From assembly GCA_003212295.1 (NCBI GenBank), contig QCQC01000005.1, forward strand, positions 1 through 50,267: a stretch of DNA of 50,267 nucleotides, given 5' to 3'. This stretch comes from Pelagibacteraceae bacterium AG-447-E22. GTDB lineage: Bacteria; Pseudomonadota; Alphaproteobacteria; Pelagibacterales; Pelagibacteraceae. The notes below the pieces were generated by a model. The model did not search any database. It was not told where the DNA came from and saw only the letters and a program-made list of their open reading frames with translations. Position 1 is the first letter of the stretch. Every line of letters starts with the position of its first letter. The position numbers and the translations under genes are program-made. Shown in pieces: positions 3,704 through 45,021 of the stretch.

Positions 3704-6289
3704 ATGAATTTGGTCATTGTAGAAAGTCCTGCTAAAGCTAAAACAATAAATAAGTATTTGGGTGATGATTATAAAGTTCTAGCAAGTTATGGTCATATAA
3801 GAGACTTGCCTTCTAAAAATGGTTCAGTTGATCCGGATCAAGATTTTAAAATGGAATGGGAAGTTGACAGTTTTTCAAAAAAGTATCTTAAAGAAATTAC
3901 TGATGCAGCAAAAGACTCTTCTAAAATTATATTAGCTACCGACCCTGACCGTGAAGGTGAAGCTATTGCCTGGCATGTAAAAGAATATTTAAATGAAAAA
4001 AAACTTTTAAAAGATAAAGAAATTGAAAGAGTTGTATTTAATGAGATAACTAAAAAAGCTGTAATACAGGGAATTGAAAATCCAAGACAAATTGAACCTC
4101 ATCTAGTTGATGCTTATATGGCTAGAAGAGCTTTAGATTACTTGGTTGGTTTTAATATTTCACCAATACTTTGGACAAAACTACCTGGCTCAAAATCTGC
4201 AGGAAGAGTTCAGTCTGTTGCTTTAAAATTAATTACTGAGAGAGAACATGAAATTGAGTCATTTGAACCAGAGGAATTTTGGACTTTAAGTGTAAACTTT
4301 AAAGATCAAAATAATCAAAAAATTACCGCAAGTATTAGTCAATTAGATAATAATAAAATTGAAAAATTTTCATTTAAAAATAAAGAAGAAATAAATAAAG
4401 CTATAGAGAGTATAAATAAAAAAAAATTCAGTATTACAGATATTTCAAGCAAAGTTGTTAATCGAAATCCATCCGGACCATTTACTACATCTACTCTTCA
4501 ACAAACCGCATCAAGTAGATTGGGTTTTGGCGCATCTAGAACAATGCAAATAGCACAAAAGCTTTATCAAGGAGTAGAGATAGAGGGTGAAACTATTGGC
4601 TTGATTACTTATATGAGAACAGATGGAACTAATTTATCCAAAGATGCAGTGTCAGCTTTTAGAGATTATATCCAAAAAGAAATTGGTAGCCAATACTTGC
4701 CTAAGGATGCTTTGAATTATTCTGGTAAAAAAGCCAAGAATGCTCAGGAAGCTCATGAAGCAATTAGACCAACAGATATAATCAGAACACCCCAAAGTGT
4801 TAAAAAATATTTAAGTACAGATCAAAATAAACTATATGATCTTATTTGGAGTAGAGCTTTATCTTCTCAAATGGAGTCTGCCAAATTTGACAGGAACACT
4901 ATTACTATAACTTCAAACAACAATGACACTATTTGTAAAGCTAGTGGGTCAGTACTAAAATTTGATGGATTTTTGAAGATTTATAACAATCAAAGTAAAG
5001 ATGATGATGAAAATGTTTTACCATCCATGTCTAAAGGACCTATTAATATCGAGGCATTACTAGATGAACAACATTATACACAACCACCTCCAAGATACTC
5101 TGAGGCTAGCTTAGTTAAAAAACTTGAGGAACTTGGTATTGGAAGACCATCTACTTATGCAAGCATCATCTCTACTATTGCTAACAGAGGTTATGCAGAA
5201 ATATTGAATAAAAGATTCTTTCCTACTGACAGAGGAAAATTGATTTCTGCCTTTTTAGAAAAATTGTTCTCAAAATATGTAGATTATAATTTTACAGCAG
5301 GATTAGAAGATCAGCTTGATGAAATCACCACTGGAAAAGAAAGTTGGATTAAAGTTTTGGAGCTTTTTTGGAAAGACTTTAATAATAATGTATCAGAGGT
5401 AAAAGAAAAGAGAACTAGAGAGGTCTTGGATTTGCTTAATGATAGTTTAGGTGAATTGATTTTTGATAAAGATAATGAAGGAAATGTTGTTAGAAAGTGT
5501 CAATTATGCAATTCTGGAACATTAAGTTTAAAAAATAGCTTCAGAGGTGGTGCTTTTATAGGATGCTCAAATTACCCTGAATGTAAGTTTACACGACCAT
5601 TATCTAAGGCAAAAGCTGCAGCTCAAGCACAATTAGCAGAACCGAAATTAATTGGAAAACACGAAAATGGAAATGAAATTTATCTAAAAAATGGGAGGTT
5701 TGGGCCTTATCTTCAGTACGAAAAAATTCCTACTGATATTGAGGTTGAAAAAGCTACGAAGAAAAAGAAAAAAGCAAAAAAATCTAAATCAGATGTTAAT
5801 GAACTTTTAAAAAATGTTTCAATACCCAAGGGTTTAGATCTAGAAAGTATTGATTTAGAAAAAGCTCAATTCTTATGCTCACTACCTAAATCACTTGGGA
5901 CAAATCCTGACAATCAAAAAGAAATTACATTAAACACTGGAAGATTCGGCCCTTATCTAAAATGTGAAAATAAGTCAGCAAGAATAGAAAATATAGAAGA
6001 AATTTTTTCAATAGGTTTAAATAGAGCAATTACTCTAATAGCTGAAGCTAAACCTGGTCGAATGTCTTCATCAATGATTAAAGATTTAGGCGAACATCCT
6101 GAGGATAAAAAGCCAGTTAGAGTAATGAAAGGTCAGTACGGTCCTTATATTAAGTACAAATCACTCAATGCAACTATACCTGAAGAAAAAGATCCTACCG
6201 AATTAACAATGGAAGAGGCTTTAATATTGATTGAGAAAAGAAAAGAATACGATAAAACTAAAAAATCTAAAAAAAGGAAATCTAAATGA
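3704..6289 (+). CDS. topA: DNA topoisomerase I
   Basis: Type IA topoisomerase that relaxes negative supercoils through a covalent tyrosine-DNA link. The N-terminal TOPRIM domain begins VESPAKAKTINKYLG and carries the acidic triad D80-P-D82-R-E-G-E86. The catalytic tyrosine is Y303 in LITYMRTDGT, with R305 beside it. One C4 zinc finger is visible (C599, C602, C621, C627). Three C-terminal repeats built on GRFGPYL or GQYGPYI follow, then a lysine-rich tail. At 861 residues it has normal alphaproteobacterial length. The stop overlaps the next start in ATGA, so the RidA-family gene is coupled to it. Confidence 0.97.
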   Translation: MNLVIVESPAKAKTINKYLGDDYKVLASYGHIRDLPSKNGSVDPDQDFKMEWEVDSFSKKYLKEITDAAKDSSKIILATDPDREGEAIAWHVKEYLNEKKLLKDKEIERVVFNEITKKAVIQGIENPRQIEPHLVDAYMARRALDYLVGFNISPILWTKLPGSKSAGRVQSVALKLITEREHEIESFEPEEFWTLSVNFKDQNNQKITASISQLDNNKIEKFSFKNKEEINKAIESINKKKFSITDISSKVVNRNPSGPFTTSTLQQTASSRLGFGASRTMQIAQKLYQGVEIEGETIGLITYMRTDGTNLSKDAVSAFRDYIQKEIGSQYLPKDALNYSGKKAKNAQEAHEAIRPTDIIRTPQSVKKYLSTDQNKLYDLIWSRALSSQMESAKFDRNTITITSNNNDTICKASGSVLKFDGFLKIYNNQSKDDDENVLPSMSKGPINIEALLDEQHYTQPPPRYSEASLVKKLEELGIGRPSTYASIISTIANRGYAEILNKRFFPTDRGKLISAFLEKLFSKYVDYNFTAGLEDQLDEITTGKESWIKVLELFWKDFNNNVSEVKEKRTREVLDLLNDSLGELIFDKDNEGNVVRKCQLCNSGTLSLKNSFRGGAFIGCSNYPECKFTRPLSKAKAAAQAQLAEPKLIGKHENGNEIYLKNGRFGPYLQYEKIPTDIEVEKATKKKKKAKKSKSDVNELLKNVSIPKGLDLESIDLEKAQFLCSLPKSLGTNPDNQKEITLNTGRFGPYLKCENKSARIENIEEIFSIGLNRAITLIAEAKPGRMSSSMIKDLGEHPEDKKPVRVMKGQYGPYIKYKSLNATIPEEKDPTELTMEEALILIEKRKEYDKTKKSKKRKSK

Positions 6290-42178: not shown

Positions 42179-42211
42179 TTAATTATCAAATAATTAATAA
42201 TTATTGCGCAT

Positions 42212-42287
42212 GCCCTTGTAGCTCAGCTGGTAGAGCAATTGATTTGTAATCAATAGGTCCGCGGTTCGAATCCGTGCGGGGGCACCA
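42212..42287 (+). tRNA. tRNA-Thr (TGT anticodon)
   Basis: Acceptor GCCCTTG pairs with CGGGGGC, D arm GCTCAGCTGGTAGAGC, anticodon stem ATTGA/TCAAT around TTTGTAA (anticodon TGT), T arm CGCGG/CCGTG around TTCGAAT, discriminator A and an encoded CCA. It lies 33 bases after rlmB, probably co-transcribed with it. Its last base directly abuts the stop codon of nadK on the other strand. Confidence 0.97.
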
Positions 42288-43067
42288 TTAAGAAGTTTCT
42301 TTTCTCAATTGTTCTATTTTGATTTTTTTTTGTAAGCTTCTATTTTGATCATATAAAAGATTGAATTTTATTTTTTGATTAGTTTTAATAATAATATTTT
42401 TTGAATTCCTAACTTCAATATTATCTGCTACTGCACTAATTGGTCTTTTTTTTGGATTTAAATTTTTAATAACTATTTTTGATTTATCACTTACAATTTT
42501 TCCTTTCCATCTTCTTGGTCTAAAAGGACTAATAGGTGAAATCGATAATTTTTTAGAATTTAAACTTAGAATTGGACCATGTACTGAAAGATTATAAGCT
42601 GTACTTCCTGCAGGTGTTGAAACTAATACTCCATCAGAAACTAGCTTTTTTATTACTTGTTTGGATCCGTGATTGATAGATAGTGATGCTGCTTGTCTAC
42701 TTTGTCTTAAAATTGAAACCTCATTAATTGCTATATGTTTTTTAATTTGATTTTTATTATTTCTGACTTGCATTTCTAAAGGAGATATACTTATCAATTT
42801 AGCTTTGTTTAAGTTATTAATTATATTTTTTGATGAAAATTTATTCATCAAGAAACCATAATTACCAGAATTAACTCCATAGAAAGATTTGTTTGAATTT
42901 CTATTTTTTTTGAGTGTTTGAAGCATGAAACCATCACCACCGATTACAATAGTAAAATTAGATTTCTTTACTCCATTTTTTTTAATTATTTTTTTTAATA
43001 AAGTTTTTATTTTTACAGATTTAGGGTTTTTATCAGAAATTATTTGAATTTTATTCATTTTATTCAT
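42288..43067 (-). CDS. nadK: NAD kinase
   Basis: Phosphorylates NAD+ to NADP+ with ATP or polyphosphate. The GGDG motif is at residues 43-46 (IVIGGDGFML), followed by the conserved VNSGNYGFL and the nucleotide site NEVSILRQ and VSTPAGSTAYNLSVHGPIL. Length is 259 residues from the chosen ATG. A longer frame starting at GTG would be translated from the 3' half of tRNA-Leu and is rejected. The ATG lies just three bases after the tRNA CCA, so a processed message would be almost leaderless. Confidence 0.93.
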   Translation of the reverse strand: MNKMNKIQIISDKNPKSVKIKTLLKKIIKKNGVKKSNFTIVIGGDGFMLQTLKKNRNSNKSFYGVNSGNYGFLMNKFSSKNIINNLNKAKLISISPLEMQVRNNKNQIKKHIAINEVSILRQSRQAASLSINHGSKQVIKKLVSDGVLVSTPAGSTAYNLSVHGPILSLNSKKLSISPISPFRPRRWKGKIVSDKSKIVIKNLNPKKRPISAVADNIEVRNSKNIIIKTNQKIKFNLLYDQNRSLQKKIKIEQLRKETS

Positions 43068-43070
43068 TAA

Positions 43071-43156
43071 TGGTGCCCTCGGCCAGACTCGAACTGGCAC
43101 TCCGCAAGCGGCAAGGATTTTAAGTCCTTTGTGTCTACCAATTTCACCACGAGGGC
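43071..43156 (-). tRNA. tRNA-Leu (TAA anticodon)
   Basis: Class II tRNA of 86 bases with an encoded CCA (43071-43073). Acceptor GCCCTCG pairs with CGAGGGC, D region GTGGTGAAATTGGTAGACAC, anticodon stem AAGGA/TCCTT around CTTAAAA (anticodon TAA), variable arm TGCCGCTTGCGGAGT, T loop TTCGAGT. Its first 13 bases overlap the 3' end of the cyclotransferase-like gene: the TGA of that gene is tRNA bases 11-13. Confidence 0.96.
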
Positions 43157-43551
43157 ATCAAAGCTTTTTTTAGATATTTTTTATCTAATTTGCAATCTTT
43201 ATATCCACGTTTAACAACGTTTAAATATCTTTCTGTTGGAAACTTAAATAGTGTTTTTTTAACCATTGTATATGTCATTACTTTTTTTCCATAATACAAG
43301 AAATAATATTTTTTATATAAAACTGGATAATCTTCATAAACATCAAGTTTCTTTTCATCGCTTTTTGAAATTTCAAATAATCCACCTGGAACGATTGAGT
43401 TTTTTTTAGGCTCTATATCAGCAGCTCTGTATTTGCTTCTAAAAGTTAGTCTAAAATCCTTAAGATTAATCTTTTTAATAAAAATACTATCTTTACATCT
43501 GCGTTTCATTTGAAAATGATGAAGATTACTACCATAGGCAAAATAAAGCAT
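43144..43551 (-). CDS. Gamma-glutamylcyclotransferase-like (AIG2/GGCT fold) protein
   Basis: The N-terminal LYFAYGSNL is the substrate-binding loop of the GGCT/AIG2/ChaC-like fold, and GGLFEISKSDEKKLDVYED near residues 69-88 fits the middle of the domain with the acidic catalytic position. Family members release 5-oxoproline from gamma-glutamyl peptides or amines; the real substrate here is unknown. Length (135) is typical. It starts directly after the cinA-like stop. Its last four codons and stop lie within tRNA-Leu, so cutting out the tRNA would remove the stop codon from this message. Confidence 0.82.
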   Translation of the reverse strand: MLYFAYGSNLHHFQMKRRCKDSIFIKKINLKDFRLTFRSKYRAADIEPKKNSIVPGGLFEISKSDEKKLDVYEDYPVLYKKYYFLYYGKKVMTYTMVKKTLFKFPTERYLNVVKRGYKDCKLDKKYLKKALMPSW

Positions 43552-44301
43552 TTAACGATCTACAATTTCAATTTTTTTTTCTTTAATAAATTCTAAAATT
43601 TGTGAATTACAAAGATCTATTTTTGATTGATCTTCAGAACGAATTACAATTGAAACTCCTAGTTTGCCTGCATGAAAAAATGGATAGCTTCCTATTTCAA
43701 CTTCTTTATTGCTATCTTGAACTTTAGTTAGTGAACTTGCGATTTCACTCTCAACTGTTTTTAAACTTATTGTGTGACTTAAAATAGGTTGACCTCCTAC
43801 TATTCTATTCTTTAAACCTCCTAACATTGATTTTAAAATTGAAGGAACACCAGGTAAACAAAATACATTTTTTATACTAAAGCCAGGGGCACCACTTGTT
43901 GGATTAAGAATTAATTCTGCATTTGCCGGCATCCAAACCATTTTTTGCCTACCTTCATTGAATTCACCAGGCTGATAATAAGCCTCAAGAATTTTAAAAG
44001 CTTCTTTATGTACTTCATATTTTAAATTAAAAGCTTTAGCTACTGATTGAGCTGTTATATCATCGTGGGTAGGTCCTATACCACCAGTGGTAAAGACATA
44101 ATCATTTTCTGCTCTCAAAACATTTAAAGTATCTATGATTTTTTTTTCTATGTCGGGTACTACTCTTACTTCATTTACTTTTACACCTATCGAATTTAAC
44201 CAATTAGCTAAAGTACTGGTATTCGTGTCCTGAGTTCTTCCAGAAAGAATTTCATTTCCAATAATTAATATCGCGGCATTTACTTTTGTGTTTTTTGTCA
44301 T
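43552..44301 (-). CDS. CinA-like molybdopterin-binding-fold protein (COG1058)
   Basis: Contains the MoaB/Mog-type fold found in the N-terminal domain of CinA. Motifs: ILIIGNEILSGRTQDTN near residue 11, VFTTGGIGPTHDDITAQSVA near 64, and FCLPGVPSILKSML near 148. It has 249 residues, without the C-terminal nicotinamide-nucleotide amidase domain of full CinA. Family members hydrolyse ADP-ribose or have other roles; the substrate cannot be read here. It is divergent from sfsA with about 20 bases between the likely starts. Confidence 0.85.
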   Translation of the reverse strand: MTKNTKVNAAILIIGNEILSGRTQDTNTSTLANWLNSIGVKVNEVRVVPDIEKKIIDTLNVLRAENDYVFTTGGIGPTHDDITAQSVAKAFNLKYEVHKEAFKILEAYYQPGEFNEGRQKMVWMPANAELILNPTSGAPGFSIKNVFCLPGVPSILKSMLGGLKNRIVGGQPILSHTISLKTVESEIASSLTKVQDSNKEVEIGSYPFFHAGKLGVSIVIRSEDQSKIDLCNSQILEFIKEKKIEIVDR

Positions 44302-44310
44302 TTTTATATG

Positions 44311-44316
44311 TATAAT
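44311..44316 (+). promoter_or_regulatory. Perfect -10 box just before sfsA
   Basis: TATAAT stands seven bases before the preferred sfsA ATG (44323). No good -35 box is seen at the right spacing. If this is a promoter, the sfsA-map-purB message would be leaderless and the upstream ATG at 44308 would lie inside it. Chance occurrence is likely enough in AT-rich DNA that confidence is low. Confidence 0.3.
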
Positions 44317-44322
44317 TTGAAT

Positions 44323-45021
44323 ATGGAATTTACCAAGTCTTTAATAAAAGGCAAATTAATCAAAAGATATAAGCGTTTTTTTGTAGATGTTAAATTAAAT
44401 AAAGAAATTGTCACAGCTCATTGTCCAAATACTGGTTCAATGAAAGGTCTTTTAGATGAAGGTAATGATGTTTATCTTCTAAAAAATAATGATCCTAAAA
44501 GAAAGTTAAAATATGGATTAGAGATAATAAAAGCTCAAAAAAATCTTGTTGGTGTAAATACTCATATGGCAAATAAAATTGTTAATCATGGTTTAAGAAA
44601 CAATCTTATTAAAGAATTAAAAGATAGTGACAAAGTTAAAGCTGAGGTCTTTTTTAATAAAGAAACAAGATTTGACTTCTTGTTAGAAAAAAAAAAACAA
44701 AAAAGCTTTATAGAGGTAAAAAATGTAACACTTTTTAGAGACAAAAAAACTGCTGAATTTCCAGATGCAATTACTTCTAGAGGCTCAAAACATTTACTTA
44801 CCCTTATTGATGCCATAAAAAAAGGTTATAAAACTTACTTAATATTTTTGGTACAGATACAAAATATGGAATATTTTAAAATAGCTAAAGATATAGATAG
44901 TGAATATTATGAAAATTATCTTAAAGCAAAAAAAGCAGGTGTTAATTTTCTAGCTTACAGGTGTAAAATAAGTTCTAAAGAAATATTTATTGATAAAAAA
45001 ATTATAATTATAGATGAGTAA
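44323..45021 (+). CDS. sfsA: SfsA family nuclease-like DNA-binding protein
   Basis: SfsA was named for stimulation of maltose genes in E. coli; its function is not settled. It has an N-terminal OB-like part (TAHCPNTGSMKGLLDEG near residue 33) and a PD-(D/E)xK-like core with RFDFLLE, SFIEVKNVTL, and EFPDAITSRGSKHLLTLIDA. The in-frame ATG five codons earlier is possible, but MEFTKSLIKGKLIKRYKRF matches the family N-terminus; 232 residues. It overlaps map by eight bases. Confidence 0.93.
   Translation: MEFTKSLIKGKLIKRYKRFFVDVKLNKEIVTAHCPNTGSMKGLLDEGNDVYLLKNNDPKRKLKYGLEIIKAQKNLVGVNTHMANKIVNHGLRNNLIKELKDSDKVKAEVFFNKETRFDFLLEKKKQKSFIEVKNVTLFRDKKTAEFPDAITSRGSKHLLTLIDAIKKGYKTYLIFLVQIQNMEYFKIAKDIDSEYYENYLKAKKAGVNFLAYRCKISSKEIFIDKKIIIIDE

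Follow-up and report, generated by a model that had tools for sequence, protein, structure and literature searches.

The window, a stretch of 50,267 nucleotides, is contig 5 of a Pelagibacteraceae genome of 800,723 bases that is 67.7% complete. Its minus strand carries, in order, a cinA-like gene, a GGCT-like gene (ggct), tRNA-Leu(UAA) and NAD kinase (nadK). The ggct reading frame (43551..43144) encodes 135 amino acids, ends with the codons ATG CCC TCG TGG TGA, and its product is a GGACT/AIG2-like gamma-glutamylcyclotransferase (Pfam PF06094, E 2e-8, above the cut-off). The tRNA-Leu(UAA) was placed by ARAGORN at 43156..43071, where its first base is the G of the ATG codon near the end of ggct. 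Thirteen bases (43144-43156) are common to the two genes and the ggct TGA constitutes tRNA bases 11-13. The features of the locus are as follows.

43552..44301, minus strand: cinA-like gene, whose stop codon is followed immediately by the ggct ATG
43144..43551, minus strand: GGCT-like (GGACT/AIG2) gene, 135 amino acids, TGA at 43146-43144 (reading frame and Pfam)
43192..43206, minus strand: GGATATAAAGATTGC, a motif conserved at silent sites and lying 36-50 bases ahead of the tRNA, possibly an internal promoter or a signal of another kind linked to the tRNA
43144..43156, minus strand: overlap, tRNA bases 1-13 = (G)CCC TCG TGG + TGA (sequence; seven distinct genomes)
43118..43156, minus strand: attB identity segment, tRNA bases 1-39, reaching into the anticodon loop, where the crossover is presumed to fall
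43071..43156, minus strand: tRNA-Leu(UAA), CCA encoded (ARAGORN; one copy in the complete relative G217)
42288..43067, minus strand: NAD kinase, which may start 3 or 12 bases past the tRNA CCA

The original prediction had placed the stop codon of ggct inside tRNA-Leu(UAA), within tRNA bases 1-13 and on the same strand, and both the coordinates and the shared strand, here minus, were reproduced by the reading frame and ARAGORN. It had further argued that RNase P cleavage at the tRNA 5' end would deprive the upstream message of its stop, which holds as sequence logic, as a cut between 43157 and 43156 would leave a message ending ..AAA GCU UUG AU. The overlap is not peculiar to this 67.7%-complete assembly since it was also found in G217, a genome in one contig that is 99% complete. 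Among the 31 ARAGORN tRNAs of G217 (32 RF00005 matches), tRNA-Leu(UAA) was the only one into whose 5' end a same-strand reading frame from upstream extended, as judged from the fetched tRNA regions and frames of at least 90 amino acids. Every anticodon occurs once among these 31 tRNAs except CAT, which occurs three times; tRNA-Leu(UAA) is single. The position of the TGA is unremarkable by itself, as one of three frames meets it once the genes abut. Overall, the ggct/tRNA-Leu overlap is real, recurrent and modestly unusual.

Downstream of the tRNA, the two possible NAD kinase starts leave little space for a ribosome-binding site (43056-43071), and tRNA 3' processing would give a leaderless or nearly leaderless NAD kinase mRNA; several relatives have similar short gaps. 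The NAD kinase stop in turn abuts the 3' end of a convergent tRNA-Thr with zero bases between them (42287-42288). Repeats around the ggct/tRNA-Leu locus were examined, and none entered the interpretation.

The overlap with an intact tRNA was identified in seven distinct genomes after duplicates were removed, namely the window genome, G217, G220 (which bears another genus label), G197, G632 (AG-414-J16), CP.40 and AH-326-O21. Relatives with the same junction bear the names Pelagibacteraceae or Candidatus Pelagibacter. Seven further genomes have a ggct that ends on the 5' part of the tRNA, half or decayed, and is followed by other DNA. An exact scan of the genome collection returned ten records, in five of which the tRNA is complete and in the other five reduced to its 5' half. 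Within the genus the state is rare: the junction pattern with at most one mismatch was present in 5 of 399 genomes, a draw that did not include G217, and in none of the 57 genomes with a completeness of 90% or more. Among the five matches, G670 and G576 carry only part of the tRNA behind ggct. Trees of cinA and ggct scattered the overlap genomes over several branches, and equal-weight Fitch parsimony, needing 11 changes, reconstructed a root without the overlap, the divergent G200 (locus L080), whose gene end lies in a decayed relic, being scored with the overlap set. Given this root state, the overlap may have been retained for long or formed anew. The conservation in relatives to which the original prediction had looked was partly borne out, in that seven genomes on several branches have the overlap intact while many others lack it. 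By eye, nadK directly follows tRNA-Leu in 16 of 20 relatives, and does not do so in the overlap genome G220.

These 20 relatives were fetched on the condition that ggct and tRNA-Leu share one contig. Eighteen of them have 1-16 kb between the two genes, and the overlap is present in the remaining two (G217 and G220). In 8 of the 18 island intervals the 5' half of the tRNA is clearly present again; these additional copies end between tRNA bases 39 and 44, within the anticodon loop or shortly past it. A decayed copy was found in a ninth interval, that of G200. In six genomes ggct reads into a 5' half, stops at the same TGA and is followed by other DNA. The decayed tRNA 5' part in G114 still provides the end of ggct, now with a TAA, and the divergent ggct genes of G200 and G348 end with TAG inside a decayed relic. 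An ordinary ggct stop was present in all 18 island loci except G200, and in G142 ggct has its own TAA with an intact tRNA-Leu 79 bases further on. A separate stop codon with the same protein end in relatives had been named as evidence against the original prediction; the separation was found, in G142 and at the 18 island loci, but the protein ends differ. When the 130 bases that follow ggct were compared with the tRNA half, only 2 of 81 other genomes gave a clear score, one of them owing to the intact tRNA of G142. An apparent tRNA-like ggct end in G076 was dismissed by eye as a coincidence in another frame. In two genomes of the genus label g9 about 70 bases at most separate tRNA-Leu from the end of the cinA match, and the fetched stretch gave no match to ggct, so that cinA and tRNA-Leu can be neighbours where ggct is missing.

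Occupied sites, in which a 5' half on the host side and a complete tRNA at the distal end point the same way, were identified in L160, where both junctions lie within 8 kb, in G670, where both are on one contig, and in G114, where the half is decayed. At such loci ggct runs onto the 5' half with the same UGA, and the full tRNA at the far end is preceded by a different leader. In G670 two halves stand in series ahead of the full tRNA, all within 3.3 kb (G670:C1:30293-33592), as if two insertions had been stacked. The ggct-joined tRNA 5' part (minus strand) and full tRNA-Leu (plus strand) of G576 (G576:C20:182-4426) are oppositely oriented, and for this reason they do not form a simple pair of left and right junctions and were not counted as an occupied site. 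The short island of L160 from the ggct-joined half to the full tRNA (L160:2407-5782) encodes a T5orf172-domain protein and a MORN-repeat protein, and no integrase was found in the four frames scanned. A Pfam integrase between ggct and tRNA-Leu was found only in G168 among 29 genomes searched, and most islands therefore look like remnants.

The 39-base tRNA half was found exactly (39/39) in the isolate pelagiphage HTVC105P at 4685-4723, located 84 bases behind the integrase gene and ahead of the RNA polymerase, and a second phage record, AP013542, has the same exact half in the same order. The host site and integrase-bearing phage thus have in common an identical stretch of tRNA that stops at the anticodon loop, as expected of an attB. 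The exact half also occurs in 23 IMG/VR contigs, of which L172 and L183 hold the full tRNA and the 21 others have non-tRNA sequence past base 39. Pfam integrases were located beside the half in L174 and L171, and L173 is T7-like with an RNA polymerase and a single-stranded DNA-binding protein. A contig of 7.8 kb (L170:1-7799) has the half at both ends, a primase and an integrase-like protein (phrog_1, E 4e-20; below the Pfam cut-off), and judging from this content is likely a small SAR11 phage satellite. The T7-like RNA polymerase region appears to be split into two slightly overlapping frames in L173:291-3051, L175:290-2913 and L192:457-3184, with both parts scanned in L173 and one part each in L175 and L192; the polymerase of HTVC105P is in one frame.

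A common form of the leader that precedes the far-end tRNA was also found before the half in L173. The L173 leader had at least 80% identity over 50 bases to the leaders of 38 of 67 full tRNA-Leu loci, a set in which some genomes are counted twice. Of 12 dereplicated leaders, among them one (L172) with a full tRNA rather than an attP, 5 matched a loose TTG..TA promoter pattern, as against 1.4 expected, and 3 of 500 shuffles did as well. The pattern TATAAA..TGC, chosen post hoc, was present in 2 of the 12.

A comparison of 96 ggct genes identified a motif at silent positions near the end of the gene. The motif, GGATATNNNGATTGC, is located 36-50 bases before the tRNA, corresponds to codons 116, 117, 119 and 120 (GGA TAT .. 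GAT TGC), and was present in 14 of 14 overlap genes, seven intact and seven half or decayed, as against 3 of 81 others. The TGC alone was present in 14 of 14 overlap genes and 14 of 82 others. These 81-82 other genes are a non-random set, with 40 loci hand-picked from 141 genomes with a match, mostly at higher identity. Duplicate loci (L155, L159, L161, L163, L166 and L168) and second loci of some genomes were removed before the counts; L158 is contained in L166 and L156 in L163. The codon counts used 96 of 100 loci, L216, L222, L224 and L227 being dropped as their alignment ended before residue 126, and the motif was found in none of these four. G200 (L080), which reads GGA TAT AAA AAT TGT at the motif, is outside the 14, and the divergent G348 (L083), whose gene ends in the relic, is outside the codon set.

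Silent identity over codons 116-120 was 0.91 in the seven intact-overlap genes and averaged 0.60 in matched subsets of the others, none of 2000 such subsets reaching 0.91, for a window that was picked after the data were seen. Unscaled, 1369 of 2000 matched subsets had some window as high, hence the scaled figure is preferred; codons 116-120 then had a z of 4.2, which 17 of 4000 matched subsets attained anywhere in the gene, and the highest scaled window was codons 113-117 (z 4.8) rather than 116-120. Silent identity over codons 1-110 was alike in the overlap set (0.67) and the others (0.65). Between the motif and the tRNA, codons 122, 123 and 126 were more variable in the overlap set than outside it, 127 and 130 were about equal, and the lysine codons 124, 125, 128 and 129 were uniform within the set. 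Because codons 122, 123 and 126 vary, one shared tract from motif to tRNA is disfavoured, and with several codons in between varying in the overlap set so is short-tract recombination as the cause of the motif. A hairpin between motif and tRNA in the fold of the window was not kept in other overlap genomes (by eye).

The linkage of the motif to the overlap points to a signal for the tRNA within ggct, for instance a promoter, and the simplest reading of these letters would be a promoter -10 element (TATAAN, 42-47 bases before the tRNA). A sigma-70 consensus scan identified no minus-strand promoter inside ggct, a promoter and terminator scan of 42200-44500 gave no excess relative to shuffles, and TATAA[AGT] was not enriched before the other tRNAs of G217 (11 of 27 as against 9.7). 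As both the consensus scan and the TATAA enrichment were null, the promoter reading draws on conservation alone. A tRNA promoter within the upstream gene was the other finding that had been held to speak against the original prediction. The silent-site pattern suggests such an internal signal, although the consensus form of a promoter is lacking.

We consider it probable that the overlap is the empty, uninvaded state of an integration locus for phages and satellites, cinA-ggct-tRNA-Leu(UAA), in Pelagibacteraceae, with the tRNA made mainly from an internal signal. In the empty state most tRNA transcription would begin at the signal in the 3' part of ggct, and a lesser share would come as read-through from cinA-ggct. 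An element would enter at the anticodon loop, and its entry would leave ggct its stop codon and rebuild the tRNA behind the leader of the element. The element promoter would then take over, the old relic and the motif would decay, and ggct would acquire an ordinary stop. Speaking against this reading are the scarcity of Pfam integrases in the islands, the few tRNA-half matches just after ggct in the other genomes, the null promoter scans, the non-overlap root state and the position of nadK in G220. Cutting by RNase P of any read-through RNA would remove the ggct stop and the message would be cleared by tmRNA, but such stop loss and clearance would be a side effect and not a dedicated switch. 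Loss of islands by chance deletion, considered as the origin of the overlap, is weakened by the ggct-joined 5' halves in other genomes; exact excision could have contributed.

A ribosome terminating at tRNA bases 11-13 would cover strands of the acceptor stem and D-arm, and termination and RNase P cutting should therefore exclude each other on one molecule. This supports the logic of the original prediction, not its use in the cell. Under that prediction one transcript would give either a mature tRNA or a terminated protein; in a fuller form of the idea, turnover of the stopless message by trans-translation would tie ggct expression to tRNA demand. The geometry is exact, folding prediction for the joint RNA retains the acceptor stem, the overlap occurs on several branches, and tmRNA was found in four of the five genomes searched (G217, G197, G220 and G114) and was not found in the incomplete window genome (G000, 67.7% complete). 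The joint fold was, however, no more stable than shuffles (z -0.89), the tRNA likely has an internal signal within ggct, and in many relatives the genes are apart with separate ggct stops. As insertions repeatedly break the ggct-tRNA pairing, a selected RNase P/trans-translation coupling seems unlikely, and we give the tie to tRNA demand little credence; for whatever read-through RNA is made, coupling of this kind is possible.

Neutral packing in a streamlined genome is somewhat easier to entertain but also doubtful. The tRNA would then be produced by read-through from cinA-ggct and the conserved codons would reflect translation or chance, in keeping with the zero gap between cinA and ggct, the 3-12 bases that separate the tRNA from the nadK start, the abutment of nadK on tRNA-Thr, and the lack of a consensus promoter inside ggct. 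The distribution of the motif (14 of 14 against 3 of 81) speaks against such packing, as does silent identity over codons 1-110, which is not raised in the overlap set. It is also conceivable, though we regard it as very improbable, that the overlap was spread or re-created by homologous exchange or excision and that its recurrence reflects shared DNA or repeated return instead of long retention. The scatter of the overlap genomes on the tree and the non-overlap root with its 11 changes would fit, and excision between the ggct-side 5' half and the distal tRNA would restore the exact junction. A shared tract across the junction is nevertheless not evident given the variable codons 122, 123 and 126, the GGCT protein of G220 is only 80% identical, and excision alone would not preserve the motif.

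Attachment sites formed by the first half of tRNA-Leu are a known type. The T7-like cyanophages P-SSP7 and S-TIP37 have 39-base attachment motifs identical to the first half of tRNA-Leu; these motifs lie behind the integrase gene, as in the phages described here, and integration was shown by PCR (PMC8776855). The present locus differs in its SAR11 host, in an attB that overlaps the stop codon of a protein gene and in the likely exchange of leaders. Pelagiphages of the HTVC019P type have an integrase and a tRNA-Leu fragment identical to the HTCC7211 gene, while HTVC022P uses tRNA-Cys (PMC3861242, PMC12753301). The SAR11 host, the integrase and the tRNA-Leu fragment are thus shared with these phages, and the ggct stop overlap, the relics and the motif appear to be additional here. 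In tRNA-dependent lysogeny a phage enters an essential tRNA gene and supplies a whole separate tRNA, whereas here the tRNA appears to be rebuilt at the junction from the 5' half of the element (PMC10865867). Tycheposons, found in aquatic bacteria with streamlined genomes, are islands bordered by tRNAs that encode a tyrosine recombinase (PMC10872708); here only one island, that of G168, has a Pfam integrase, and L170 has its integrase-like protein and primase. The literature within reach of our search, to which most subscription papers do not belong, held no description of such a site overlapping a protein gene.

In mitochondrial tRNA punctuation, protein genes abut or overlap same-strand tRNAs and tRNA excision would end the mRNA. 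The present arrangement, known from its geometry alone, differs in that a complete stop codon lies inside the tRNA. Provided that an RNA spanning both genes is made, the locus would be a natural example of mutual exclusion between termination of an mRNA and 5' processing of a tRNA on a single molecule.

Under the integration-site reading, relatives allow a comparison at one locus of sites that are empty, freshly occupied or decayed. These states suggest that the host's own tRNA signal is located within a protein gene and is replaced by one that the elements carry in. We tentatively extend this, at less than even confidence, to integration acting as a promoter swap for a single-copy tRNA that we take to be essential, where the uninvaded gene would be driven from inside ggct and the invaded one by the leader of the element, with both genes freed from the overlap. 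UUA is a leading leucine codon in such AT-rich genomes. If the promoter swap is true, host lineages would alternate between coupled and uncoupled states of the tRNA that reads it.
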